NCBI GenBank assembly: GCA_963576565.1 | Contig: OY755048.1 | Coordinates: forward strand, 10,145,984 to 10,209,983 | Source of the DNA: Aspidapion aeneum | Taxonomy: Eukaryota > Arthropoda > Insecta > Coleoptera > Brentidae | Reading direction: 5' to 3' | Length of the DNA stretch: 64,000 bases | Shown here: positions 12,998 to 55,198 of the stretch, piece after piece | Position numbering within the stretch: position 1 is the stretch's first letter | Layout of the letters: each line of letters starts with the position of its first letter | Notes under the pieces: model-generated | What the model saw: only the letters and a program-made list of their open reading frames with translations | Told to the model about the DNA's origin: nothing | Database searches by the model: none | Program-made: the position numbers and the translations under genes

Positions 12998-14597
12998 TTA
13001 TCGGTTTCACAACGTTCTACGTCTTCCGATACCCAATCTCCACTCGTTTCTGTTTGCCCATAATTCATCATCTAGGCCGCTTATTCTTATTTCACTGTCT
13101 ATTCCTTCTCTCCAGCTTCTCCTTGGCCGCCCTCGTTTTCTTTGGCCAGTTGGTTTCCATTGTAGTATTTGTTTAGGTAGTCTTTCATCATTCATTCTTT
13201 GTACATGTACATGTCCGTACCACATCAGTTGGTTTGATCTTATATCATCCACTAAAGTACGTTCACACACTGTCATAATTTCTCTTATTCTTTGATTTGT
13301 AACTCTTTCTCTTTTTGATTTCCCTGCTGCTCTTCTCCAATAGTCCATCTCCGTAGCGGAAAGCATTTTTCTGTTCTATCCTTGATTGGCCATACTTCTG
13401 AGCCGTATGTAATAATACTTTTTACAATGGTGTTATATATAGGCTTTTTGTTATGTTTTGATATACTTTGGTCCCAAATTATTCCATTTAATAAAGTTAT
13501 TGCCTTTCTTCCTTGTACGTTTCGATCTTTTATAGCTTTGTCTAGTGTTCCGTCAGCTGTAATTTTTAGACCTAAGTATTTGAACTCATCATAGGACTAA
13601 ATTCACTGCCCGGTATTTAAGATTCTGTTTCATTCCACCGATACACATATACTCTATCTTATTGAGATTAACATCTAGTCCCCACTTATTGTACTCTTCT
13701 AATAGTTTTCGTGTCATATATTCGAGGACGTCATAATCCTGAGCCACTACTATCTGATCATCGGCGAAACATAAAGTATACAAGGTGGTTTCATCCAACG
13801 GAATTCCCATGTTTTGGCATTTCCTCTTCTTGTTCCAAGTATATCTTGAAGAGCGTAGGCGAGATACAGCAACCTTGTTTAAGACCTTTATTTACTTGAA
13901 AGCCTTTGGTTAGTTTTGCTTTTATTTTAACTTTTGCCTTACTATTGCGGCATAACTCTTTGATGGCCTTAATTAGTTGTACGCTTTTGTTTGTGTTTTC
14001 CAACGCTTTCCAAAGTAGATTTAGTGGTATACTATCATATGCCTTCTGCAAATCGACGTAAAGCAGATGCAGCTCTTGTGCGTATGCCATTTTCTTTTAA
14101 ATAACTTGGGTTATCCAAAAGAGATGATCTGAAGTCGATCTACCCGCCCTGAAACCTTGTGGATATATATGACGTTTTCCACTCAGTTGGTACTACAGTT
14201 CCATTTAAATATTTTTGGAAAAGATTCCGTAATCTCCAAAACAATTCTTCAGTGCCATATTTAATAAGTTCGGCTGGGATATTTCCGGGTCCGGCAGATT
14301 TACCGCTTTTCAAGGTTGTGCACACGTTTTTGACCTCAGAGATTGTAAGGGGTACTGGAGATCCCATCGTTCTAATTATATTGTCTCTTGCGTCTTCCTT
14401 GAATTCTGCTCTATCTTCAGTTAAAAGTTTTTTAAAATGCTCATCCCATTCTTTGTCTGGTATTGGTGAAATGATATCTCTGCATGTTTCTTTTTTAATC
14501 GATCTTATAGTTTTCCAGCTTTCGGTATTTCGCCTACCTCCTAAGTAAGAATCTATTTTCTGACACTTTTGCGTCCACGAATGATTTTTCTTATCAT
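12931..14597 (-). mobile_element. RTE-type LINE (family A) with (TA)n 3' tail, 5'-truncated
   Basis: A minus-strand non-LTR element bounded by the exact 10-bp duplication ACCTAAGTTA. It ends in GTGAAACCGATAAATAAATA followed by (TA)n at 12931-12992, a microsatellite 3' tail as seen in RTE-clade elements. The 5' end lacks the endonuclease. A second copy of the family lies at 37843-39517 with the same tail. Confidence 0.9.
13007..14590 (-). pseudogene. RTE reverse transcriptase and C-terminal domain, decayed
   Basis: Minus-strand pieces in order. Near 14367-14140: fingers region with TISEVKNVCTTLKSGKSAGP and IPAELIKYGTEELF. At 14090-13791: palm start LLYVDLQKAYDSIPLNLLW and GLKQGCCISPTLFKIYL. 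At 13810-13589: catalytic FADDQIVVAQ and the following thumb. At 13366-13007: the C-terminal module WRRAAGKSKRERVTNQRIRE, with WYGHVHVQRMNDERLPKQIL and RKRGRPRRSW. Catalytic aspartates are present, but frameshifts and a deletion after SYIST split the frame. Plus-strand frames in this interval are antisense shadows. The protein would copy element RNA at a nicked target by target-primed reverse transcription. Confidence 0.88.
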
Positions 14598-14607
14598 ACC
14601 TAAGTTA
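14598..14607. repeat. Target-site duplication ACCTAAGTTA (copy 2 of 3)
   Basis: The copy shared between the RTE element on its left and the Penelope-like element on its right. Confidence 0.85.
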
Positions 14608-14689
14608 TTTTTTGTTTGAAACTCGTAGACAATGATTGTGTAGAAATAAAATTTCGGACTTCCATTGTCTTTATTTATTTTAAAACACG

Positions 14690-14735
14690 ACGTTTCGGTT
14701 AGTAAGTATCTCTAACCGTTATCAAGTGTAAACTA
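14690..14735 (-). ncRNA. Degenerate hammerhead-ribozyme-like motif in PLE (copy A)
   Basis: Reverse complement of the motif described at 17091-17135: stem II GGTTAG/CTAACC followed by GAAACGTC. Core changes make cleavage doubtful. Confidence 0.5.
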
Positions 14736-14760
14736 AACAATCTAGTCTCTAGGCTACTAC

Positions 14761-15543
14761 TTATACTACTTGGTATGCAGTCAGGTGTGACGGCCCGCCC
14801 CCTTTTTTAATCCTAAGACGCCTGTTTTCCTTAAGGAGTGGTTTCCATATGTTTGGTATGTCCGTGCTTGGTTGACTGAAAACTTCTTTATTCTGCATTA
14901 TAAACGCAGCTTCAATAAACTTTCGTTTTCGCCAATGTGACTCCTTATGTAAAACTTTAGCTTCTGACCACTGAATCCTGTGATCATTTGACCATGCATG
15001 ATCTGCTAAACCGGATTTTTCAATATCCCCTAATTGGGTACTTTTTAGATGTTCATTTACTCTAACTTGAAGAGGGCGTTTCGTTTCACCTACATATGAT
15101 TTACCACACTCACACGGGATTTGGTAAATACATTCCTTATTATTTGAGGGATTTTCTGGTTTTGTTTTAGTTACAAAACTTCTTATCGTATTTCCCGAAG
15201 AAAATACTGTTTTTATATTATAGTGTTTAGCTATTCGTCTTATGTTTTCTGAAATCCCTTGAACATATGGAATGTTAATAACACCTAACGGATTATTATT
15301 TTGAGAATTCGGTACATTTAGTTTGTTTTTAATTTTAAATATCGTTGAGTTTAATAATTTCTCGGAATAACCATACTGTTGTAAGTCCTTTTTAATGTTG
15401 TTAATTTCTGTGGTTAATTCTTCATTATTACTACAAATATTTACGGCTCTTAAATACAAACTTCTTATAACTCCTTGTTTTGTTGCAACAGAATGATTAG
15501 ACTTAATTTTAAAACACGACGTTTCGGTTAGTAAGTATTTCAA
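14761..15543 (-). pseudogene. PLE C-terminal polyprotein fragment: GIY-YIG endonuclease
   Basis: An open frame of 260 codons on the minus strand with no authentic start. It covers the end of the RT-to-endonuclease linker and the GIY-YIG nuclease of a Penelope-like protein. Visible motifs are KECIYQIPCECGKSYVGET near residues 137-155, then KRPLQVRVNEHL and SGLADHAWSNDHRIQW, ending in a basic tail (KENRRLRIKK). In PLEs this domain nicks the target DNA. The frame is uninterrupted, but the RT is missing from this copy. Confidence 0.88.
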
Positions 15544-15888
15544 ACCGTTATCAAGTGTAAACTAAACAATCTAGTCTCTAGGCTACTACTTATACTACTT
15601 GGTATGCAGTCAGGTGTGACGGCCCGCCCCCTTTTTTAATCCTAAGACGCCTGTTTTCCTTAAGGAGTGGTTTCCATATGTTTGGTATGTCCGTGCTTGG
15701 TTGACTGAAAACTTCTTTATTCTGCATTATAAACGCAGCTTCAATAAACTTTCGTTTTCGCCAATGTGACTCCTTATGTAAAACTTTAGCTTCTGACCAC
15801 TGAATCCTGTGATCATTTGACCATGCATGATCTGCTAAACCGGATTTTTCAATATCCCCTAATTGGGTACTTTTTAGATGTTCATTTA
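15506..15888 (-). pseudogene. PLE 3' fragment, tandem partial copy B
   Basis: A near-identical repeat of 14687-15060. It includes the hammerhead-like motif (15508-15553) and the end of the GIY-YIG domain, and is cut off at KST-VNEHL-like codons where piece C begins in the opposite direction. Confidence 0.85.
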
Positions 15889-17056
15889 CGCTATCGGTGG
15901 AGGGGGTGATGGATCTTTTGGAGCTCTGTCTCCGTAACTCTTACTTTCAAGTGAAAGATAAGTTTTACGCGCAAAATGATGGACTCCCAATGGGTTCATC
16001 TCTTTCGCCAGTAGTAGCAAACATCTACATGGAGTGGTTCGAGGGCCATGCGATCAACACCGCAAGAGTCAAACCAAAACTATGGCTACGATACATGGAT
16101 GACACATTTATTATATGGCCGGAAAATGATGACGAACTACAAAATTTTCTACACCATTGAAACGGTATTCGACCAACAATCAAGTGCACCATGGAAATTG
16201 AAAAAGATTCGGCCTTACCTTTTTTGGATATTCTTGTCAAACGATTAGACAGAAACATTCAAACCACTGTATATAGGAAACCTACACACACGCGACAGTA
16301 CCTAAATTTTAAGTCCAATCATTCTGTTGCAACAAAACAAGGAGTTATAAGAAGTTTGTATTTAAGAGCCGTAAATATTTGTAGTAATAATGAAGAATTA
16401 ACCACAGAAATTAACAACATTAAAAAGGACTTACAACAGAATGGTTATTCCGAGAAATTAATTAATTAAACTCAACGATATTTAAAATTAAAAACAAACT
16501 AAATGTACCGAATTCTCAAAATAATAATCCGTTAGGTGTTATTAACATTCCATATGTTCAAGGGATTTCAGAAAACATAAGACGAATAGCTAAACACTAT
16601 AATATAAAAACAGTATTTTCTTCGGGAAATACGATAAGAAGTTTTGTAACTAAAACAAAACCAGAAAATCCCTCAAATAATAAGGAATGTATTTACCAAA
16701 TCCCGTGTGAGTGTGGTAAATCATATGTAGGTGAAACGAAACGCCCTCTTCAAGTTAGAGTAAATGAACATCTAAAAAGTACCCAATTAGGGGATATTGA
16801 AAAATCCGGTTTAGCAGATCATGCATGGTCAAATGATCACAGGATTCAGTGGTCAGAAGCTAAAGTTTTACATAAGGAGTCACATTGGCGAAAACGAAAG
16901 TTTATTGAAGCTGCGTTTATAATGCAGAATAAAGAAGTTTTCAGTCAACCAAGCACGGACATACCAAACATATGGAAACCACTCCTTAAGGAAAACAGGC
17001 GTCTTAGGATTAAAAAAGGGGGCGGGCCGTCACACCTGACTGCATACCAAGTAGTA
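15889..17056 (+). pseudogene. PLE reverse transcriptase plus GIY-YIG endonuclease, decayed
   Basis: Starts inside the RT with VEGVMDLLELCLRNSYFQV, then AQNDGLPMGSSLSPVVANIY, the catalytic WLRYMDDTFIIW (near 16085-16115) and ALPFLDILVKRLD. It is 5'-truncated. An in-frame TGA lies at 16158-16160. A short TTAA-like insertion near 16465 shifts the frame before the GIY-YIG region, which continues open to about 17056 and matches copy A. The element would have primed reverse transcription at a nick made by its own endonuclease. This copy cannot encode a full protein. Confidence 0.88.
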
Positions 17057-17090
17057 TAAGTAGTAGCCTAGAGACTAGATTGTTTAGTTT

Positions 17091-17135
17091 ACACTTGATA
17101 ACGGTTAGAGATACTTACTAACCGAAACGTCGTGT
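17091..17135 (+). ncRNA. Degenerate hammerhead-ribozyme-like motif in PLE
   Basis: Drawn by hand as a type I fold. Stem I is ACAC (17091-17094) with GTGT (17132-17135). The core TTGATAA is at 17095-17101, one extra C follows, then stem II GGTTAG/CTAACC with a 9-nt loop, GAA at 17124-17126, minimal stem III A-CG-T, and C17 at 17131. Against CUGANGA, positions C3 and G8 are substituted, so activity is doubtful. PLEs are known to carry hammerhead motifs in their repeats. Confidence 0.55.
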
Positions 17136-17178
17136 TTTAAAATAAATAAAGACAATGGAAGTCCGAAATTTTATTTAT

Positions 17179-17188
17179 ACCTAAGTTA
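17179..17188. repeat. Target-site duplication ACCTAAGTTA (copy 3 of 3)
   Basis: Right boundary of the PLE composite. The presumed unoccupied flank continues ACTAAAGAAAATAATC. Confidence 0.85.
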
Positions 17189-24439: not shown

Positions 24440-26561
24440 TTTATATAACTTTTTGGCAAATGGGCAATTCCCCCTATTTTGACCCCGCTGAATCCGAATA
24501 TCCCTGTTGCCAACTCGAAATATTCACAGGGGCTGAGATATTCAAGATGGCGGCCAAAATGGCGGCGGGATTTTAAATTGCCGCTGAATAGCCCAAATTG
24601 TCACAGGTGTATATTCAAAATATATATTTGTATAATTAAAAAATATTAACATTATTTTTTTTAATTGGCTGCAGAAACCTCCAAAAACCCCCCTAGACCC
24701 CCCAAAATCTGAAAGTTTGAGGTTTTTTTTAATTTTCTTAAAAACTAAGCTTCTAAGAGAAAAATGTACAATATACTTTATTGTAGACAATAAAATTTAA
24801 ACATGGTATAACTTAATAAAGTTAGACTAATAACAAGCTCTCCAGCGGCGTCCGTTAATTGAAGTAATTAAAAAAAGTTGAAAAAGTACCTATGTTTTTT
24901 CCAAAATTTATTAAATTATATACTAAATAAAATTTCCTTCAAAATGACGTATAACATGATTAAATCAGTTTTATAAATAAAACTTCAAGGGCATCCGTAA
25001 ATTAAATTAATTTTGAAAAAACAGAAAATAAAACATTTTTGTTACACGTTTTGAGAAAATTAGCTAAAAAACTAAGCTTAACATGAAAAAACTTCTTCCA
25101 CACTTTTTTGTAGACAGGGAAATTCCGTTTTTAAAAATGTGAAACTCGGTGGGGTTTGACTTATGGCAAACTCTCCAGCGACGTCCGTCAATGGGGGTGA
25201 TTTCAACAAATCATTAAAAAAAACATGTTTTTCATAAGTTTTATTCAATTTTCTTAAAAACCATGCTCTTTATCAAAAAATGTGTTCTATACTTCGTCAT
25301 AGCCAATAAAATTTCCTTTCAAACGATGTATAACAAAGTAAAAGTTATTTTACATTTACCGCTCCAGTGGTGTTCTTAATTTAAAGAAATTATTTAAGAT
25401 CAATCCAAACTAATCAATTTTGTGTTTTATTAGCTTTTCGGTGGATAATAAAGAGCGGCGGATAAAAGGTCGAAAGTACAAAAGGTCGAAAGTACAAAAG
25501 GTCGAAAAAATAAGGTCGAAAGTACAAAAGGTCGAAAATAAAAAAGGTCGAAATTACAAAAGGTCGAAAGTACAAAAGATCAAAAAACAAAAGGTCGAAA
25601 GTTCAAAAGGTCGAAAGTATGAGAACCTAATTATGACTATGCCCCCCCCCCAAACCGTTGCATAAGATTCACCACTTTATTTTCAGTTCCATATGCTTAA
25701 AAAAATAACCAAAAACACCTGTGTCAAAGTTACTACTGTTACTTTCTGCACAAAAATATTGCTTAGGGGGGGCCATGGCCCCTATGCCCCCTCCCCTTAT
25801 AAACATCGGTGTTTTTTTGCTTTAAAGAACTTATTTAGATAAATCAAAATATCTAATCTGATCAAAAAACAGTCTATTTTAATTTGGAAACATTTTATTT
25901 TTAGGTATAAATTACGAACCTTTTTGAAGTATTTATCATGACATTAACCTCACTTTGTAATATATCATTTAAAAAGAAATTGTCTTATCCTCAATAAGGA
26001 CTAAAGGCACATTTTTTTCTAAAAATCTTAGTTAGAAAAGATATTTAAATATGCAAGAGAAACTGATTATTTCAGTTATTTTTGAAAATAAGTTTATATT
26101 AGTACGCCCCTGAAGCCTTAAATATGGCAACAACCCGACATTTTAATAAAGTTTTTAAAAGAAAATGTTATGTTCTACAATAAAGTATACTACATATTTT
26201 TTCCTAAAAAGTGTAGTTTTTGAGAAAATTTTGAAAAACCTATAATAAACATGTTTTTTCTAAATAATCCCAATTTACGTACGCCACTGAAGAGCTACTT
26301 GCTTTTCCTAACCTTATTGACCAATACATCGTTCGAAAGGGAACTTTATTCTCCGCAAACTGTTCTTTGCAATTTTTGATAAAAAGGTTAGTTTTCGAGA
26401 AAATTGCATAAAACTGAAAAAAACAGGTTTTTGGGGGTTTGGGGGGGATTTTCTCCGTTCCTGTCGATTTTTCGAGTTGGCAACAGAGATATTTGGATTC
26501 AGCGGGGTCAAATTAGGGGGAAATGGTCTGTTGCCAAAAAGTAATATGATTTGCTTCTAGA
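24429..26561. mobile_element. Foldback-like palindromic element with tandem modules, copy 1
   Basis: The ends match as inverted repeats over about 110 bp, starting TCTAGAAGCA and including GGATTCAGCGGGGTCAAA. Inside, a module recurs several times and in both orientations. It contains AAAACTAAGCTTCT, CTTTATTGTAGACAATAAAA and CTCCAGCGGCGTCCGT. The same modules make up the palindrome at 48.5-49.5 kb. Noncoding. Long inverted arms built from tandem modules resemble Foldback elements; assignment is by structure only. Confidence 0.65.
25463..25620 (+). repeat. 16-bp minisatellite (AAAAGGTCGAAAGTAC units)
   Basis: About ten imperfect units of 15-16 bp, each AAAAGGTCGAAAGTAC or close. The 81-codon frame across it (KGRKYKRSKVQKVE...) is a by-product. 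It lies inside the foldback-like element and matches the array at 146-241 in reverse. Confidence 0.88.
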
Positions 26562-29585: not shown

Positions 29586-32500
29586 ATGGGGGATGCAGAA
29601 TTAAAAACATTTACTAGAAAAAGAAAAATCGCTTTGACTAGGATCACTGAAATCTATACTTTGGCGGTAAAAGCCAAGGATGATGAAGCCGAGCGCCCTA
29701 TCTTTCAAATTGCTTTTGAAACTTTGGAGGATCAATATTTTGAGTTTAAACATCTCCATAACGAATTGATGGGGTTGCTGACCGACGATAAAAATTTCGA
29801 TGCGGAAGATGCAATTAGAAAAAATTGTGACACTTTTTATTTCCAAGCAAAAGCAATATTTTGTAAGTTATTTCCAATTCCAGGCACTTCTAGGCCGCAG
29901 TCCTCTGCGCCTACTCCCACCAGTCATAGTTTTGAAAGTTTTAAACCTTCAATTCCGGTTTTTACGGGCTCAATGCTAAAATGGCCGACTTTTCTAGATC
30001 TTTTTTCAAGTATAATAGACAAAAATCCTGCACTATCGAATGCCTCAAAATTTCGGTATTTAATTACTTTATTGCAGGGTGAACCATTAAATTTGGTAAA
30101 GTCGTTACCAGTTACTGATAGTAACTATTTAATTGCCTTTTCAAATCTACAAAAAAGGTACAACAATAAGCGCCTTTTAGCTACGTCATATTGGAATTCC
30201 ATTGTGCATGTTTCCTCCATGAAATCAAATCAGAGCTCTAAAGATCTTAGAAATATTTTGGACACGTTTACTGAAAATCTAGAGGCCCTGAATGCCTTAG
30301 AATTTAATACAAAAGATTGGCAGTTTCCGTTGTTTAATTTATTGCTGGGAAAAATAGATACTCCCACTAGATCAGCCTTTGAGGTTTGCCATACTGAAAA
30401 GGAAATTCCTAGTTACACCGATCTATATGAGTTTTTAGAAAAACAGTGCCAAGCACTAGAATCGGTTCAGTATTTTCAGCCTTCAGTATCAAATATGGAA
30501 AAAAAATCTAAAAGTTTTGGATCTGGTAACTACAATAGTTCAAAACCAAATTCATATAATAACAATAATTTCAAAAACTCCTTTATGACAGGCATACCGA
30601 AAAAACAACAAATTTTACCAAACTTTAATAATCATAATCAAAGCAACTTTCAAACAAAAATATCAAAACAATGCAAGTTATGTAACCTTTCGGTACATCC
30701 TTTTTCTCAATGCCAAGTTTTTTTACAAAAAACTCCAGCTGATCGTCTCGCTTTCGTGAGACAAAATAATATATGTGGCAACTGTTTAAGATCAAATCAT
30801 TTTCTTTTAAAAGATTGCTTATCGCCTTTTAATTGCAAATCCTGCGGGTTACGTCACCATAGTTTATTATGTGACGTCACAACTCGATTTAACCCAGCCC
30901 AACCTAACATGCAAACTTCTTCATTTATTTCAAGTATTCAGTCACCAACGCAAAATCAACAATCAAATTATAGTTTATATCCTAATAATATCGATTCAAA
31001 TCAAATACCTTTCTATGATAAAAATATTCAGCAGAATATTAACCCAACCTTAACTAGCATGCAGCATTCTAATCAATCTAATTTTAAGTCACAAATGCAA
31101 CCAATTCAAGATCAATCGCAACAACAAATCAATCAAAGTCAATATCCTTCTACTTCGCAACAAAATCAACAATTAACGCAAAATACATCTCGACAACAAC
31201 CTAACCAAACCAACTGTTATACCTCATTCACCCCAAACTGTCAAAGCACAGTACTATTGTCTACCACAATTGTAGAAATCCTCGATGCACGCGGGAACTA
31301 TCAAGTAGTGAGAGCCGTCCTAGACAACGCCAGCGAAGCCTCTTTTATCAGCGAAAACTGCTTAAATAGGTTAGGTTTATCTAGGAAAAAATTATCTGTT
31401 CCTATTCTAGGAATAAATCAATCTTCTTCTTCAACAAAAGGTATGACGCAATGCACTATTCGTCCAGTTGGAAAAACTGATCCCACATTTTCCTTTAACG
31501 GTTTAGTCGTTCAAAGATTATGCTCTTCTTTACCTAGTGTCCAAATTAATCCAAGAAATTGGAATTATCTTTCAAACATTAAACTAGGCGACCCCTTCTT
31601 CTACAAACCGGCCCCTGTTGATCTACTTCTAGGCGCCGAGATTTATTCCCAAATTATTAAATCAGGTCGTATGTCTGGGTGTCAAGGTCAACCAGTCGCC
31701 CTAGAGACGGAGCTGGGATGGGTGTTGTTAGGCAGGGTCGAACAAAACATATCTTATCAATCCAATCCCTTAAAAATCGAAAACTACTTTACCGCTTTCG
31801 ATAACTCTCTAGACTTGACTCTTAGGAAGTTCTGGGAGCTTGAATCGATTCCTCAAAAAAGCTATTTATCCCCAGATGAGAAAAAAGCTGAGGAAATTTA
31901 TCAAAATACGGTATCACGTGATAGCACGGGACGATTCATGGTAGCTTTACCTTTTAGGCACTCTGAACCCGACTTAGGTGACACGTTTTCTAGAGCTTAC
32001 CGTTGTTTCATTTCATTAGAATCTAGACTTCTTAAAAATCCTGAAATGTATTCCATGTATTCAGATTTTATGCTAGAATATTTAAAAAACGGACACATGA
32101 GCCTTATTTCAAATAATGAACCGAAATCAATGAATGTTTCATATTTACCACATCACGGGGTACTAAAACCCGATAGTACAAGCACGCGTTTGAGAATTGT
32201 ATTTAATGGATCTTCAATTGGAAGTAAGAATTATAGCTTAAATGAGACCCTTTTACCAGGCCCTAAACTTCATGCAGATATTACAACTATTTTATTAAGG
32301 TTTCGTTTTCATTCTATAGCAATTCTTAGTGATGTTCAAAAAATGTTTTTGCAAATCAATTTAGTACCCGAACATAGAGATTATCAGCGTTTATTGTGGC
32401 GTTTCCACCCCAATGAACCCTTAAAAGAATATCGTTTAAATACTGTTGTTTTCGGACTCACTTCAAGCCCTTTCTTAGCTATCAGAACCTTACGAGAGTT

Positions 32501-32957
32501 AGCCTTTCAAGAGAAAAATAAGTATCCAAATGCTGCAAAAGTAGTTCTTCAAGACGTTTTCATGGACGATGTCTGTACGGGCAGTTCTGATTTGTCTTCT
32601 GCGCAAGCGCTACAAAAAGAGCTGATTGGCTTGCTAAAATCCGGTGGGTTTGAACTACGTAAGTGGGCAAGCAATGACCCAAGATTGCTATCATCATTGT
32701 CTCCTTCAGATTGTCAAGTTCCAATATCTTTCGATAAGGAACAACCTTCTAGTATTAAGGTCTTAAGGCTGCAGTGGAACCCTTCGTCAGACACATTTTC
32801 ATATAAATGCAATCAAGATAATAGTCCGTTAACAAAACGTAAAATCCTCTCTGTAATTGCTAAAATATACGATCCTTGCGGATACATATCGCCAGTAACT
32901 CTTCTCGCAAAATCAATAATGCAAGAACTCTGGAAGCAAAAAAATCAATTGGGATGA
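29586..32957 (+). CDS. gag-pol: BEL Gag-protease-reverse transcriptase polyprotein, ends at a frameshift
   Basis: 1123 codons from an ATG after an A-rich leader. Residues about 1-330 are the Gag-like DUF1759 region. Residues 360-430 are a cysteine/histidine cluster (CKLCNLSVHPFSQC, CGNCLRSNHF, CKSCGLRHHSLLC). A glutamine/asparagine-rich spacer follows. The aspartic protease lies near residue 578 (VLDNASEASFIS; D-N-A in place of the textbook D-S/T-G). The reverse transcriptase has catalytic FMDD at residues 992-995. The frame ends at TGA 32955-32957, inside what should be continuous pol. The next pol frame opens at 32950 in +1, so a 1-2 base indel is the simplest explanation. The protein would form virus-like particles and reverse-transcribe the element RNA in the cytoplasm. 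Confidence 0.93.
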   Translation: MGDAELKTFTRKRKIALTRITEIYTLAVKAKDDEAERPIFQIAFETLEDQYFEFKHLHNELMGLLTDDKNFDAEDAIRKNCDTFYFQAKAIFCKLFPIPGTSRPQSSAPTPTSHSFESFKPSIPVFTGSMLKWPTFLDLFSSIIDKNPALSNASKFRYLITLLQGEPLNLVKSLPVTDSNYLIAFSNLQKRYNNKRLLATSYWNSIVHVSSMKSNQSSKDLRNILDTFTENLEALNALEFNTKDWQFPLFNLLLGKIDTPTRSAFEVCHTEKEIPSYTDLYEFLEKQCQALESVQYFQPSVSNMEKKSKSFGSGNYNSSKPNSYNNNNFKNSFMTGIPKKQQILPNFNNHNQSNFQTKISKQCKLCNLSVHPFSQCQVFLQKTPADRLAFVRQNNICGNCLRSNHFLLKDCLSPFNCKSCGLRHHSLLCDVTTRFNPAQPNMQTSSFISSIQSPTQNQQSNYSLYPNNIDSNQIPFYDKNIQQNINPTLTSMQHSNQSNFKSQMQPIQDQSQQQINQSQYPSTSQQNQQLTQNTSRQQPNQTNCYTSFTPNCQSTVLLSTTIVEILDARGNYQVVRAVLDNASEASFISENCLNRLGLSRKKLSVPILGINQSSSSTKGMTQCTIRPVGKTDPTFSFNGLVVQRLCSSLPSVQINPRNWNYLSNIKLGDPFFYKPAPVDLLLGAEIYSQIIKSGRMSGCQGQPVALETELGWVLLGRVEQNISYQSNPLKIENYFTAFDNSLDLTLRKFWELESIPQKSYLSPDEKKAEEIYQNTVSRDSTGRFMVALPFRHSEPDLGDTFSRAYRCFISLESRLLKNPEMYSMYSDFMLEYLKNGHMSLISNNEPKSMNVSYLPHHGVLKPDSTSTRLRIVFNGSSIGSKNYSLNETLLPGPKLHADITTILLRFRFHSIAILSDVQKMFLQINLVPEHRDYQRLLWRFHPNEPLKEYRLNTVVFGLTSSPFLAIRTLRELAFQEKNKYPNAAKVVLQDVFMDDVCTGSSDLSSAQALQKELIGLLKSGGFELRKWASNDPRLLSSLSPSDCQVPISFDKEQPSSIKVLRLQWNPSSDTFSYKCNQDNSPLTKRKILSVIAKIYDPCGYISPVTLLAKSIMQELWKQKNQLG

Positions 32958-35088
32958 TCAACCCCCACCCCACATCTGCGAAACTTGGTTACAATTTAAC
33001 TCACAGTTTTCTAGTTTATCGGAGATTTCTCTCCCTAGATACATTTTTTCATCTAACATACAACGTTGCCAAATTTTAGCATTTTGCGACGCTTCAGAGC
33101 GCGGCTACGCATGCGCTATATATCTACGTATCGAATTATTAAACGAAATCAAATCTTCCCTTGTTATTGCAAAAAGCAAGGTAGCCCCACTCAAAACAGT
33201 TTCGATTCCTCGACTGGAGCTATTGGGAGCTACGCTCCTTGCTGATCTGCTTCGATTTGTCCTTGACATTTATTCGCCAATGATAACAATCGATGAGATT
33301 TTAGCATTTTCTGACTCAGAGGTAGTCCTGGCTTGGATTTCTAACTCTCCGCATAGGTGGAAAACTTTTGTGGCTAATAGAGTCAGTCACATCCAGGAAA
33401 CCATTCCAGATATTCCCTGGTATCATATCCGAACTCTGGAGAACCCAGCCGACTGCGCCAGTCGCGGCCTAACTCCAGATAATTTACTTAATCATTGTTT
33501 ATGGTTTACCGGTCCCCCCTGGATATGTTCTCCTCGCTCTGAATGGAATTTAGCTTCTCTGTCAGAATCGAATATTACTAGTTCTGTTTTAGAGGAAGAG
33601 AAAATACAGGTTTTGGCCACAATTCTGAATAATGATATTTTAAACGATCTTTTACATAATTATTCATCTATTTTACAAATTCAACGTATTATTGCTATTT
33701 GGCACAGATACTTTTTCAACATTAAGCATCAGGACACTAAACGCACTGGTTTTATTACGCTTTTTGAATTACAAGAATCTTTACTTGTACTTGTCAAGTA
33801 CGTGCAAAATCAACATTTTTCTGATATCTTCTTAAAAATTCAAAATAATGAACTTTTACCAAAACCATATCGCAAATTAGCGCCTTTTCTCGACCCCCAA
33901 AATCGTATTAGAGTTGGCGGGCGGATTAGAAATTCAATCACATTATCATATGATGTAAAACACCCCCTACTATTACCAAGTGATAGCACACTTACCAAGC
34001 TGATCATTCAAAATATTCATTCAACCTACTTGCACCCAGGATTTAATACAACTATGTATTTACTTAGACAACAGTTTTGGGTACTTTCAGCACGTAGAGT
34101 TATTCAAAAGGTTTTATCATCTTGCGTTAAGTGCTATCGCACTCAACCCAAAGCTCTTACCCCCTACATGGGTGACCTTCCAAGCTTCAGAATATCACAG
34201 CTGAAATGTTTTTCAAATGTTTGCATTGACTACGCTGGACCTATAAAATTAGCTCAAGGGCGTAAATTAGTCATTCATAAGGCTTACATTTTAGTGATTG
34301 TGTGCACAGCTTCTAGAGCTATTCATCTCGAACTAGTTTCTAACCTAACTTCAGAGGCTTTCATTGCTGCTTTTCGGAGATTTGTCAATCGAAGAGGAGT
34401 TTGCACCAATATTTATTCTGACTGCGCAACTACATACAAGGGAGCTTACAAGGAGCTTACCGAGCTTTCAAAGCACGCCGCAGATCATTTAAAAATTTCT
34501 TGGTTTTTCAATGTACCTGCTGCCCCACATTTCAATGGGCTTGCGGAAGCTGGTGTAAAATCCGTTAAAAGCCATTTACTTCGTGTTATCGGTGATCAAA
34601 TCTTAAACTTTGAGGAGTACTATACTCTTTTAACCGATGTTGAAGCATTGCTAAACAGCAGACCCTTATGGGCGCAAAGCTCTGACCCGAACGGCTTAGC
34701 TCCTTTGACTGCAGGGCATTTTCTTACGTTATCTGCACTAAATTCAGTTCCTGATCCAGATCTTTCTCATTTAAAACTAAATTCCTTATCTCGTTGGCAA
34801 CTTATACAAAGGTTGAACACAGATTTCTGGAAGAGATGGAAATCAGAATATTTGAACACCCTGCAACAAAGGTCAAAATGGCACGAGCCAAACCCCAACA
34901 TTGAATTGAATACATTGGTACTCATTAAAAATGAAAATGAGCCACCAATTCATTGGTTACTTGGACGCATAGTCGAGTTACACCCCGGCCGAGATGGGCA
35001 TGTAAGGGTTGTTACGGTGAAAACTAAAATCGGGTTATTTAAGCGACCTATAGTTAAACTGTGCCCTTTGCCTATGGCTTCAGATTAA
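32950..35088 (+). CDS. pol: BEL RNase H and integrase, downstream of frameshift
   Basis: Continues pol in the +1 frame from a TGGGATGAT sequence at 32950 without a start codon of its own. RNase H shows LAFCDASERGYACAIYL, and SDSEVV near 33315. The integrase zinc region is HPGFNTTMYLLRQQFW followed by CVKC. Catalytic residues are D in CIDYAGP (34228), D in YSDCATTYKG (34420) and E in HFNGLAEAGVK (34546). A DUF5641-type C-terminus ends at 35088. All catalytic residues looked for are present. Integrase would insert the cDNA with the 5-bp duplication seen. Only the junction at ~32950 breaks the reading frame, so it may be a mutation or an assembly error. Confidence 0.92.
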   Translation, partial: WDDQPPPHICETWLQFNSQFSSLSEISLPRYIFSSNIQRCQILAFCDASERGYACAIYLRIELLNEIKSSLVIAKSKVAPLKTVSIPRLELLGATLLADLLRFVLDIYSPMITIDEILAFSDSEVVLAWISNSPHRWKTFVANRVSHIQETIPDIPWYHIRTLENPADCASRGLTPDNLLNHCLWFTGPPWICSPRSEWNLASLSESNITSSVLEEEKIQVLATILNNDILNDLLHNYSSILQIQRIIAIWHRYFFNIKHQDTKRTGFITLFELQESLLVLVKYVQNQHFSDIFLKIQNNELLPKPYRKLAPFLDPQNRIRVGGRIRNSITLSYDVKHPLLLPSDSTLTKLIIQNIHSTYLHPGFNTTMYLLRQQFWVLSARRVIQKVLSSCVKCYRTQPKALTPYMGDLPSFRISQLKCFSNVCIDYAGPIKLAQGRKLVIHKAYILVIVCTASRAIHLELVSNLTSEAFIAAFRRFVNRRGVCTNIYSDCATTYKGAYKELTELSKHAADHLKISWFFNVPAAPHFNGLAEAGVKSVKSHLLRVIGDQILNFEEYYTLLTDVEALLNSRPLWAQSSDPNGLAPLTAGHFLTLSALNSVPDPDLSHLKLNSLSRWQLIQRLNTDFWKRWKSEYLNTLQQRSKWHEPNPNIELNTLVLIKNENEPPIHWLLGRIVELHPGRDGHVRVVTVKTKIGLFKRPIVKLCPLPMASD

Positions 35089-40627: not shown

Positions 40628-40809
40628 AAATTGTAGTAAACTGGGAAAAACATTTCAATCTGTTTTGTTTCAATTGTGGGTTATCGGGTCATAAGGCTAT
40701 TGGTTGTGTTGCTCCAAAGAAATTAGTGTGTTATGGTTGTAGAAGAGAGGGATATAAGAAATCGAATTGTCCAACTTGCAGGTCGGGAAACCGGCAAAGG
40801 CTCACTTAG
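40628..40809 (+). pseudogene. gag: Gypsy Gag C-terminal remnant with two zinc knuckles
   Basis: In frame 1 the LTR runs straight into CFNCGLSGHKAIGC and CYGCRREGYKKSNC, two CCHC/CCYC-type nucleic-acid-binding knuckles, ending at TAG 40807-40809. There is no start codon, and the matrix/capsid part is absent, so about 1 kb was probably deleted between LTR and knuckles. The frame overlaps pol in -1 phase. Confidence 0.85.
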
Positions 40810-42356
40810 GCAGTCGGCCTAAGGGTGGATTAGGCCAAAATCCGACTATGAGACCTATTTTAGATTTTATTCTTGATCACGTACGTGATGATGAAAGACC
40901 TTTTTTAGAGGTTGATGCTCTAGGACCTAAGTTATTAGGACTATTAGATTCGGGAGCTTCACGCACCTTTTTGGGTCGTTCTGGTTGGGAAATGGTAAAT
41001 AGTTTAGGTTTTTGTTTAGATTCCTCAAAGAAGACCGTTTGTACAGTGGCTAATGGACAGAAAGCGACGTCTGTTGGAATTGTGGAGCTTCCTTTTAAGT
41101 TGCGTAATAGGTTTCGGATATTAGAGGTTATTGTGGTTCCTGATCTTCCGCATTTGCTAATTCTTGGACATGACTTTTGGGTAGCAATGGGTATTTTACC
41201 AGATTTTCGTCACAATGAGTGGCATTTTTCTAAAAAGGTAGATATTTGCTCAGTTATGGATTCGCCACCCACTGTTCTTACTCCAGATCAAGGGATTCGA
41301 CTTAATGAGTTAGTTTGTAAATATAAAAATTTAATGGGTTCTAGCTTAGGTAGGACAAATAGAGTTGAACATAAGATTGTAACTAATTCATCACCAATAC
41401 GACAGCGACCTTATAGAGTGTCCCCACCAATACAGGCAATGATGGATTCTGAAATAGATGAAATGTTGCAGTTAGGTGTGATCGAGCCTAGTTCTAGTCC
41501 GTGGGCCTCTCCCGTGGTTATGGTACCTAAGAAAAACACCGGGAAGTATAGGTTCTGCGTTGACTACAGGAAATTAAACTCTGTTACCGAACGAGACAGT
41601 TACCCACTACCTCTGGTCTCCGAAACGTTAGATAAATTGAGTAATGCCAAATATCTATCGAGTTTGGATATTAAAAGTGCCTATTGGCAGGTTCCAATTG
41701 ACGAGGCATCTCGTCTGCTTACTGCATTTATCTGTCGTAGAGGTCTTTTCCAGTTTCGTAGGCTCCCTTTCGGTTTGCACAACGCACCAGCGACTTGGCA
41801 ACGTCTGATCGATAATGTACTAGGGGCAGACTTGGAGCCAAACGTCTTTGTTTACCTGGATGATGTTTGTCTGGTTTCTGACACTTTTGAAGACCATTTG
41901 CGTGTCCTGGAAGAGGTACTTAAGCGTCTGCTTGACGCCCAGATTACTGTCTCATGGGATAAGGTTCAGCTGTGCCGTACAGAATTGAAATTCTTAGGTT
42001 ATTTAGTACAATCAAATCGAGGGTTGAGTGTAGACCCGGATAAAGTAAAATTCATGTTAGAATTACCTCGTCCTACCAATGTGACCGAAGTTCGTAGAGT
42101 ATTAGGTAGTTTCTCTTGGTATAGAAGGTTTGTACCCGAATTTTCGTCTATTGTTACGCCCATTACTGCTCTTACAAAGAAAAATCATAAATTTATTTGG
42201 ACCGAAGAGTGTGAGATTGCTTTTCGAAAGATTAAAGCGTTATTGGTTTCTGCACCAATACTTAGTTGCCCAGATTATAATAAAGAGTTCATTCTGCAGA
42301 CTGATGCTTCTGGTTTTGGAATCGGTGCTGTGTTGTCTCAACCTGATGAGAATTGA
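40767..42356 (+). pseudogene. pol: Gypsy protease and reverse transcriptase (pol N-terminal part)
   Basis: 529 codons open. The first ATG (40767) is probably not used, because the frame is entered by -1 frameshifting at 40785. Protease: LLGLLDSGASRTFLG with catalytic D at residue 61, and LLILGHDFW as the flap-side motif. RT: KYRFCVDYRKLNSVTERD, then LDIKSAYWQVPI and the catalytic FVYLDDVCLV (YLDD at residues 363-366). RNase H begins LQTDASGFGIGAVLSQ and is cut by TGA at 42354-42356. The sequence then continues in the same frame, so this is a nonsense mutation. The protein would make cDNA in cytoplasmic particles. Confidence 0.92.
40785..40791 (+). promoter_or_regulatory. -1 ribosomal frameshift slippery heptamer GGGAAAC
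   Basis: In the Gag frame this reads G GGA AAC, the canonical X XXY YYZ pattern. A -1 slip moves ribosomes into the protease-RT frame, which is open across this point. The Gag stop follows 16 bases later. No downstream pseudoknot was verified. Confidence 0.75.
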
Positions 42357-53275: not shown

Positions 53276-54245
53276 TTAAAAATGCTTTAGAATTACAACG
53301 CTCATGAAGTTAGCACTAGCGCCGCGGCTTTTTTTAACCTGGCAATGCTAACTTCATGCGGAAGTTAGCACTACCACCCTTAAAACCTGCAATATCTAAA
53401 TATTTTATTTATGCGTTAATTGGTGTTAATTTTGTCGTAAAAGAAAATTTTTTGTCGCGATTCGTCCCAAAAAATCCTCGAAATTGTTAACTTTATGCAG
53501 AGGTATGTACCAACGTTAAAACTTATAATTTTGGAATATGTTATTTATGCATTAATTGTAGTATTTGCCATCAATTTGTTGTAAAAAAATGTTAATTGCC
53601 TGCGAAAGTCGGCACTTAAAACCTCAAAGTCACTTAAAACCTCAAAGTCATAATACTTGCTTCATCGACGGGACTTGTCAGCAATTTTTAAAAAACGCAG
53701 AGCATGCACAGAAATGCAGAAAAGAAATGAGTTCTCGAACTTTTACCAAACCTTCTTTCAGCACATCTCTAATAGTCTAAGAGCCCAGTAGGATTTTGGG
53801 ATTGAATTGCCAACCGATACTCATATATTTTATAGTAGAAGCTAATCACAATTTGTTTGATTAAAATCGATGTAATAATAAAAAAGTTACGTACATTTGA
53901 TTCAAACTCATTTTCGCCATCTTTAAACAAAGATGGCGGGTTGTTTATGCAGGATTTTCGCAGGTATCTCCATTTTTTTTGGGACATGGTCTTATGACGA
54001 ATCGACTAAAATATATGAGTATCGGTTTGCAATTCAAGTCCAAAATCCTACTGGGCTCTTATACTATAATGTGAATTTTATGTACATGGATAGCTCTCCA
54101 TATTTCAGCAACTTTTTTTGGCTATATAGGTACTTTGGAAAAATAGTTTGCGTGCGGCAAAATACATTTATAAAACCATTCAGCTTCGCTCCAATGATAA
54201 AACGCTCAAAACCGACAATAAAGCCCATTCATCAAAAAGCTGAAC
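53276..54245. other. Gene-free stretch with a GAAGTTAGCACTA hairpin
   Basis: At 53306-53380 the motif ATGAAGTTAGCACTA is mirrored by TGCTAACTTCATG. It is probably a relative of the Mutator-type MITE at 57827. A 15-bp direct repeat (CACTTAAAACCTCAAAG) lies at 53614-53648. No gene. Confidence 0.5.
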
Positions 54246-54486
54246 TTGTTTGATTTTAGGCGATAGCTCCGTGTAGAGCATAAGTTTTGTGAAATTAACA
54301 GAAACAACTACTCCGAGGGAAAATACCCCTACCGGCATTGAATTATACTGATGGCTTGATGCTTTTGTTGGGAACTTGTTAAATCTGTTTGGTTTTCACT
54401 ATCTCCAACGTATTGGTATTTTCCCTCGGAGTAGTTGTTTCTGTTGGTTTCACAAAACTTATGCTCTACACGGAGCTATCGCCTAC

Positions 54487-54534
54487 ATTCACCTGAGGAT
54501 GGCCCAAAAGGTCGAAACCGGTCCGGTCGTGGAT
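54487..54534 (+). ncRNA. Type I hammerhead-ribozyme-like motif, unit 1
   Basis: Hand fold. Stem I is ATTCAC (54487-54492) with GTGGAT (54529-54534), one G-U pair. Core CTGAGGA is at 54493-54499. One unpaired T at 54500 is unusual. Stem II is GGCC/GGTC with loop CAAAA, and GAA lies at 54514-54516. Stem III is ACCG/CGGT with loop GTC. C17 is 54528, so cleavage is predicted after 54528. All core residues of CUGANGA...GAA...H are present. Confidence 0.65.
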
Positions 54535-54760
54535 TGGCATGGATCACTTGTTCCTGACTATCAGGACGTGTTCCAGACGGGGATCATTCGTATCCTTGTG
54601 ATCGACGTTGGAGATAGTGAAAACCAAACAGTTTTAACAAGTTCCCAACGAAAGCATCAAGCCATCAGTATAATTCAATGCCGGTAGGGGTATTTTCCCT
54701 CGGAGTAGTTGTTTCTGTTGGTTTCACAAAACTTATGCTCTACACGGAGCTATCGCCTAC

Positions 54761-54808
54761 ATTCACCTGAGGATGGCCCAAAAGGTCGAAAACGGTCCGG
54801 TCGTGGAT
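54761..54808 (+). ncRNA. Type I hammerhead-ribozyme-like motif, unit 2
   Basis: Same fold, exactly 274 bp downstream. One C-to-A change creates a mismatch in stem III. The predicted cleavage site is after 54802. Confidence 0.6.
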
Positions 54809-55034
54809 TAGCATGGATCACTTGTTCCTGACTATCAGGACGTGTTCCAGGCGGGGATCATTCGTATCCTTGTGATCGACGTTGGAGATAGTGAAAACCA
54901 AACAGTTTTAACAAGTTCCCAACGAAAGCATCAAGCCATCAGTATAATTCAATGCCGGTAGGGGTATTTTCCCTCGGAGTAGTTGTTTCTGTTGGTTTCA
55001 CAAAACTTATGCTCTACACGGAGCTATCGCCTAC

Positions 55035-55082
55035 ATTCACCTGAGGATGGCCCAAAAGGTCGAAACCGGTCCGGTCGTGGAT
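55035..55082 (+). ncRNA. Type I hammerhead-ribozyme-like motif, unit 3
   Basis: Same fold as unit 1, 548 bp downstream, with no change in the core or stems. The predicted cleavage site is after 55076. Confidence 0.65.
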
Positions 55083-55198
55083 TGGCATGGATCACTTGTT
55101 CCTGACTATCAGGACGTGTTCCAGACCGGGATCATTCGTATCCTTGTGATTGACGTTGGAGATAGTGAAAACCAAACAGTTTTTTTTGTTTGATTTTA

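Follow-up and report, generated by a model that had tools for sequence, protein, structure and literature searches.

Non-LTR retrozymes of animals, as portrayed in passages of the survey by Cervera and de la Pena (2020, PMC7229834), are built of short units in tandem that carry a type I hammerhead ribozyme, with a GC content below 50%, target site duplications (TSDs) longer than 4 bp and no coding content above chance. On the grounds of common features and coexistence, the same passages present Penelope-like elements as a strong candidate for the mover of retrozymes. The purified Penelope-like protein of Anolis cuts and extends both strands with a preference for AT-rich targets, and it starts internally at an AC-rich loop; its tail is defined by two start sites (PMC11167929). 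The start site was no different between the strands in that study, and the hammerhead was unneeded for insertion in vitro; according to the same paper, recognition by the Penelope endonuclease of Drosophila virilis required the tail (PMC11167929). Here, we analyzed a stretch of 64,000 nucleotides from the beetle Aspidapion aeneum (referred to as the window), which carries an insert at positions 54246-55198. Its units, type I hammerhead, GC content, TSD and lack of coding content fit the animal non-LTR retrozymes described in parts of PMC7229834, which supports the retrozyme reading of the initial annotation. With the mechanism proposed below included, we consider it very probable that this insert represents a metazoan non-LTR retrozyme, copied into the genome and moved by a Penelope-like protein.

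The coordinates, the 13-bp TSD, the 274-nt direct repeat and the inverted piece given by the initial annotation were all borne out, by an exact match of the TSD copies, by tandem repeat detection (2.8 copies of a 274-bp unit in the direct array, with 98% matches) and by 96% complementarity, and its predicted cuts at 54528, 54802 and 55076 do lie 274 nucleotides apart. Units are numbered here such that p1 is 54529, the first base past the predicted cut. The insert is made up as follows:

54246-54258, no strand: left TSD, TTGTTTGATTTTA, an exact 13-bp match to 55186-55198
54259-54411, minus strand: inverted partial unit, 96% complementary to 54605-54765 and 54879-55039
54412-54414, no strand: junction filler ATT at the boundary of inverted and direct units (unit-end alignment)
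54415-54528, plus strand: 3' part of a unit, p161-p274, ending at the first predicted cut (repeat and unit alignment)
54481-54538, plus strand: type I hammerhead 1, intact, predicted cut after C54528 (Rfam HH9, 26.5 bits, E value of 9e-4 in a 2.5-kb stretch; descriptor scan)
54529-54802, plus strand: full 274-nt monomer 1 (repeat and unit alignment)
54755-54812, plus strand: hammerhead 2, damaged, predicted cut 54802 (HH9, 17.8 bits, E value of 0.57; missed by the descriptor; unit differences)
54803-55076, plus strand: full 274-nt monomer 2, with 3 differences from monomer 1
55029-55086, plus strand: type I hammerhead 3, intact, predicted cut after C55076 (Rfam HH9, 26.5 bits; descriptor)
55077-55185, plus strand: 5' portion of a unit, running from p1 to about p107-109 (clustering of ends across 37 genomic loci)
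55186-55198, no strand: right TSD, TTGTTTGATTTTA, a perfect copy of 54246-54258

The inverted match spans 54251-54411 (161 bp), running from p237 to p77, with its first bases overlapping the left TSD; in the unit-end alignment, the junction filler can alternatively be counted as one filler base plus two mismatches. This inverted piece contains no ribozyme; it ends within the 5' strand of stem I, and it diverges more than the direct units (Fisher test, 0.048). The GC content of the unit is 46 to 47%. No frame of at least 120 amino acids was found in the insert, nor the reverse transcriptase (RT) and GIY-YIG frame of an autonomous Penelope-like element. Folded as circular RNA, the monomers are 65% and 61% paired, with z values of only -1.2 and -0.3 (200 shuffles each), for which reason we dropped circular stability as evidence for a retrozyme. 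An Rfam match to MIR1435 at 54274-54468 was likewise dismissed: it is a by-product that stems from the inverted repeat and scores 43.4 bits, versus a gathering score of 94. A MITE-like element lies immediately to the left of the insert, at 53772-54067, and has 61-nt inverted arms that are 93% complementary and separated by 174 nt. Elsewhere, the window holds a BEL/Pao-type element in two frames (29586-35088, from Pfam domains), whose relatives include Leptinotarsa and Onthophagus proteins, and a Gypsy-type RT frame (40767-42356, from Pfam domains).

Hammerheads 1 and 3 are composed of a stem I of 6 bp plus 3 outer pairs and of stems II and III of 4 bp each, with CTGAGGA and GAAA. In hammerhead 2, all 12 invariant bases are kept, and two pairs are lost, one of stem III to a C-to-A change at 54792 and an outer one of stem I to a G-to-A change at 54810. 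The claim that each unit folds with an intact core is thus upheld for the cuts at 54528 and 55076; for the cut at 54802 it holds for the core but not for the pairs. With respect to covariance models, whose silence the initial annotation would have counted against itself, the outcome is divided: none of the Rfam models gives a hit at its gathering score, and the weak HH9 matches lie beneath it (best 26.5 bits versus 52). A hammerhead descriptor run over both strands of the 64 kb returned only the two intact motifs, compared to 0.03 hits per window for a loose descriptor in 60 Markov shuffles and none (0/60) for the full motif, which demands six pairs in stem I and a hairpin on stem III; the hammerhead motifs are not a product of chance. 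Computed without tertiary contacts, the local minimum free energy structure of the intact copies is another fold, at -17.5 kcal/mol versus -14.7 kcal/mol for the ribozyme fold. The strand of stem III, ACCGGUCCGGU, comes close to being self-complementary and can pair with another copy over 10 bp. Given that this strand can pair between copies, a double hammerhead within multimeric RNA seems possible.

The atypical base before stem II that was pointed out earlier is an extra U after A9, which 258 of the 263 genomic units retain, and it creates an AUG inside the hammerhead core. Chrysanthemum chlorotic mottle viroid has an extra A between A9 and stem II of its plus hammerhead. Parts of the literature on this viroid describe the extra A (PMC3705267) and state that the additional core nucleotide accompanies weak cleavage (PMC11014351), and mixed effects on activity are mentioned in a portion of PMC3088659 for other insertions into hammerhead cores. 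The extra U has natural precedents, but additional core nucleotides can weaken hammerheads. A search pattern that demanded the inserted T yielded 8 motifs in six phage or bacterial contigs (L001 to L006, with two motifs each in L004 and L005), none of them at Rfam gathering scores. Although the pattern left their stems I and III partly unspecified, both are complementary by eye; these motifs show existence, not frequency. The exact 26-base hammerhead pattern had no match in viral contigs. Separately, the window contains minisatellites of 15 to 16 bp at 25464-25619 (unit AAAAGGTCGAAAGTAC) and 144-238, whose unit has up to 14 bases in common with the hammerhead stem II strand, probably by chance.

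A search of the 1,286,157,303 bases (149 contigs) of the same assembly showed a dispersed multicopy family: at least 448 matches came from the 39 scored among 1,259 candidates. We parsed 37 loci, i.e., the window and 36 further loci that scored best among the matches listed, and this set is biased to long young arrays because of that choice. The hammerhead is covered by 263 units, of which 235 have all 12 invariant core bases intact, with at least one core-intact unit in each of the 37 loci; in 169 units, the 14 pairs of stems I to III are all intact as well. The initial annotation had named genome copies lacking conservation as a sign against its reading, and the core proved to be intact in most units, if only marginally more conserved than the rest. 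The core varies in 1.1% of cells versus 2.6% elsewhere, a value as low as which was reached by 1,034 of 20,000 random position sets; the free core position N7 varies in 6.5%, and there were no compensatory stem changes among the 263 units. Core conservation is thus marginal, and the evidence for selection is at most mild. A first test of core conservation had appeared strong, as it counted uncovered positions as variable, and was replaced by the corrected one.

These data bear on the notion of a DNA satellite that was spread by unequal exchange or by excision at the DNA level, the ribozyme being a passenger. Such a history would be in line with the marginal core conservation and with arrays that reach up to 6.7 kb at some loci. 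Within loci, 75 variants are fixed, 548 occur in a single unit and 185 are common to a subset of units, the latter suggesting local duplication. Nonetheless, we regard a satellite as highly improbable, given the short dispersed arrays with TSDs and recurrent 3' ends and the number of units with an intact core. The same variants led us to reject a single template per insertion, since they are mixed within loci and the inverted piece of the window copy is the more divergent part; for these reasons, circle and multimer templates are indistinguishable by these data.

Insertion ends were mapped onto the unit in the 37 loci. Among 52 outer sense 3' ends, 23 fall into p103-115 and 16 into p196-211, with 13 elsewhere; these ranges were set after the ends were seen, and chance would place about 2.5 and 3 ends in them. 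The corresponding numbers for 61 5' ends are 2 and 7, the 7 being slightly above expectation (P = 0.06), and the variability of the 5' ends speaks against LTRs. A single 3' end of the 52, in L048 (contig C10), lies exactly at the predicted cut, p274, as if copied from the end of cleaved linear RNA. In the window copy, the right end sits at the first recurrent 3' end (start site A) and the left end, p237, is atypical, so only one of its ends is inside the clusters. As for layout, 15 of the 37 loci are head to head, often with long arrays on both sides, none is tail to tail and 16 are single blocks. Eight of the head-to-head loci have both ends in clusters, and seven of these (L016, L024, L025, L036, L037, L044 and L049) have one end of each kind, compared to about 48% expected under independence (P of about 0.03); L015 has the same kind twice. 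The remaining seven, which include the window, have one clustered end or none.

A TSD score of at least 9 was obtained for 12 of the 37 loci, compared to 13 of 1,332 mismatched flank pairs. After L027 was dropped, because its match is unit sequence, 11 TSDs were left, 9 of them exact and 2 with mismatches. The exact ones measure 9 to 14 bp at eight loci besides the window, which has 13 bp; matches of 9 bp at L022 and 8 bp at L027 are unit sequence and were not counted. Hence, 11 loci have an acceptable TSD and 26 do not, and 22 are not head to head. The initial annotation had pointed to a count of insertions with TSDs in the assembly, and these 37 parsed loci with 11 TSDs provide it for only part of the family. 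At the 22 nick edges of these insertions, T was found 16 times at position -1, G 12 times at +1, T 17 times at +2 and T 19 times at +3, i.e., T^GTT, and GTT occupies +1 to +3 at 9 of the 22 edges, compared to 1.9% in the window. Judging from titles and the openings of abstracts among the matches listed, we found no report of this two-site head-to-head footprint in the literature. The retrozyme itself is of a known kind; its insertion footprint is new.

We also examined a family of Penelope-like elements in the same genome, of which the window contains a copy:

14596-17188, no strand: Penelope-like insertion, head to head (TSD and ends; repeats; protein match)

This copy is flanked by a 12-bp TSD, ATACCTAAGTTA, at 14596-14607 and 17177-17188, and consists of minus-strand pieces at 14608-15893 and a plus-strand piece that extends to 17176. 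Its protein piece shares 50% identity with an RT-domain protein of Leptinotarsa. A GIY-YIG endonuclease in the family is supported by our reading of the sequence and by the name that the source gives to a JGI protein of 60% identity, so we treat it as putative; Pfam and PDB searches with the endonuclease-region protein gave no relevant match. The family comprises 147 scored matches of 20,998 candidates, at 94 to 100% identity, and by hand count more than 30 of the 147 have an 822-amino-acid open frame. Also by hand count among the scored matches, about 26 pairs have minus-plus order with starts no more than 6 kb apart, compared to no pair in plus-minus order; with a limit of 6.5 kb, the numbers are 27 and 1.

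From these we sampled 20 minus-plus pairs (40 ends), chosen by their head-to-head form and without regard to ends and TSDs. In 19 of the 20, one end is a tail end (tail site after GTTTCAAACAAA) and the other a no-tail end (no-tail site after AAATTTTATTTCT), and the window copy and L053 match these 19. The twentieth, L078/L079, has one no-tail end and one that the script classed as "other," and the match taken as its TSD does not adjoin the ends. TSD matches in the sample are 7 to 18 bp long, with 12 to 13 bp in 15 of 20. Including the window copy and L053, 44 nick edges show T at -1 in 28, G at +1 in 15, T at +2 in 24 and T at +3 in 26; the preference for G at +1 is modest (P = 0.006). In the portions of the literature consulted, we found no statement of this rule of one tail and one no-tail end in head-to-head Penelope-like insertions. 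The element also has a hammerhead-like remnant, ACAC-TTGATAA-C-GGTTAG...CTAACC-GAAACGTC-GTGT, at 17091-17135 of the window, with U at core position 3, A at position 8 and an inverted copy near 14674-14720. The remnant occurs as well at about 285-330 of L052, a tandem junction whose flanking copies are reported as open. A search of the Penelope-like element with Rfam returned no hammerhead.

The scar of the retrozyme resembles that of this Penelope-like family, which suggests whose enzymes may move it; the comparison was drawn with one Penelope-like family of the genome. The preference for T at +3 is stronger in the retrozyme (Fisher test, 0.028, one of four tests). A comparison with 24 Penelope edges had suggested differences at both +2 and +3, and with all 44 only +3 stayed below 0.05. 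Because T at +3 is stronger in the retrozyme and G at +1 is itself modest in the Penelope-like family, the mobilizing partner may be this family or a sister family. Likeness between the start site sequences was rejected as not robust: compared to the 12 nucleotides preceding the Penelope tail site, p202-204 ranks first (tied with p124), a rank that is lost with longer contexts, and p109 resembles neither Penelope start site.

A LINE-type element as the mover, with the inverted pieces arising from twin priming, would account for TSDs of 9 to 14 bp equally well, and the 15-bp TSDs of Nematostella repeats have been likened to those of LINEs (in a passage of PMC4918200); by eye, the window also has LINE-like frames. 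It would be harder put to explain ends at two internal sites that are used at both edges, a head-to-head layout in 15 of 37 loci, often with long arrays on either side, and a T^GTT nick motif as in the one Penelope-like family compared, and we therefore hold it to be highly unlikely.

Pieces of Penelope were found in 3 of the 37 retrozyme loci (L033/34, L042 and L049), which may be due to chance in a Penelope-rich genome. In L049 (4279-4445), a short Penelope copy of head-to-head form has the retrozyme at its end, inside the Penelope tail. The right retrozyme TSD is followed directly by the reverse complement of that tail, the nick being T^GTTTGACAC. On the nick strand of L049 the Penelope tail reads CTTTGTTTGAAACTCG, and the T^GTT preference thus resembles the tail of Penelope itself. 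By eye, the Penelope copy in L049 apparently has its own short duplication, AGCTGTCTT.

Such pieces would also suit a unit that is a pseudo-LTR fragment of some Penelope-like element instead of an independent retrozyme; Penelope-like elements bear tandem hammerhead pseudo-LTRs (PMC11167929 and, in the part consulted, PMC7761336). Moreover, the extra U gives an AUG in the core, and the open reading frame of the Anolis element begins at stem II (PMC11167929), which made the longest frame of the unit (62 amino acids, opening with this AUG) look attractive. We rejected it as a real open reading frame, since 38% of 1,000 shuffles contain one as long; begun at the AUG of position 54773, the frame runs for 12 codons before a stop. 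Given this and the lack of any similarity between the unit and the one local Penelope-like family compared (E values up to 1), a pseudo-LTR fragment is in our view highly unlikely.

We consider trans-mobilization by a Penelope-like protein, presumably the one described here or a close relative, to be the likeliest mechanism. Tandem units would be transcribed, and the hammerheads, whose core and stems are seen in the DNA, would cut the RNA to 274-nt monomers, which may then be joined into circles; alternatively, uncut multimers may serve as the template directly. The Penelope-like protein, with its putative GIY-YIG endonuclease and RT, would nick both strands of an AT-rich target, favoring T^GTT, at a distance of about 12 to 13 bp, and both target 3' ends would serve as primers on the retrozyme RNA. 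Reverse transcription would begin inside the RNA, either near p107-110 (after CCAAACAGTTTTA) or near p202-206 (after GTTTCACAAAA), usually with one start site for each target strand. Each cDNA may cover several units, and the two would meet head to head, leaving an inverted piece, a direct array and a TSD. In this way, two convergent reverse transcription events per insertion would explain the tandem arrays, the inverted pieces and the TSDs together. The end positions, the head-to-head layout, the TSDs, the nick motif and the similar Penelope-like pattern are parts of this scheme that can be read directly from the loci. Beyond this genome, it is somewhat more likely than not that animal retrozymes are RNA parasites of Penelope-like elements, whose RNA, probably circular, would be loaded at two start sites that stand in for the tail and no-tail sites, with one cDNA per cut strand rolling round the template. 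As to the enzyme that moves animal retrozymes, the footprint makes the Penelope candidate testable, as it names RNA positions for the start of cDNA and a target motif for cutting.

Among known systems, other invertebrate hammerhead repeats, such as the W-elements of Schistosoma (PMC8490949) and pDo500 of Dolichopoda (PMC2837043), have been described as satellites; by these descriptions, they resemble the unit in being repeats with hammerheads. The RNA of the unit is 61 to 65% paired and not clearly stabler than shuffles, compared to more than 70% reported in a section of PMC4918200. From the metazoan non-LTR retrozymes, as depicted in passages of PMC7229834, the element differs in its low Rfam score and the U before stem II, and the head-to-head footprint with two start sites was not found in those passages. 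It agrees with them in tandem repeats of 150 to 450 bp with a type I hammerhead, in a GC content below 50%, in the absence of coding content, in its coexistence with Penelope-like elements and in its 13-bp TSD, which exceeds the 4 bp of plant LTR retrozymes. Compared to the Anolis element Poseidon (PAc, PMC11167929), the retrozyme lacks coding sequence, and its hammerhead is of type I and includes a helix III; the local Penelope-like family retains only the remnant described above, in which core position 3 is U and position 8 is A. Alike in both, on our reading of the scars, would be cutting and extension on both strands, AT-rich targets, internal starts that define a tail, tandem copies and a hammerhead.
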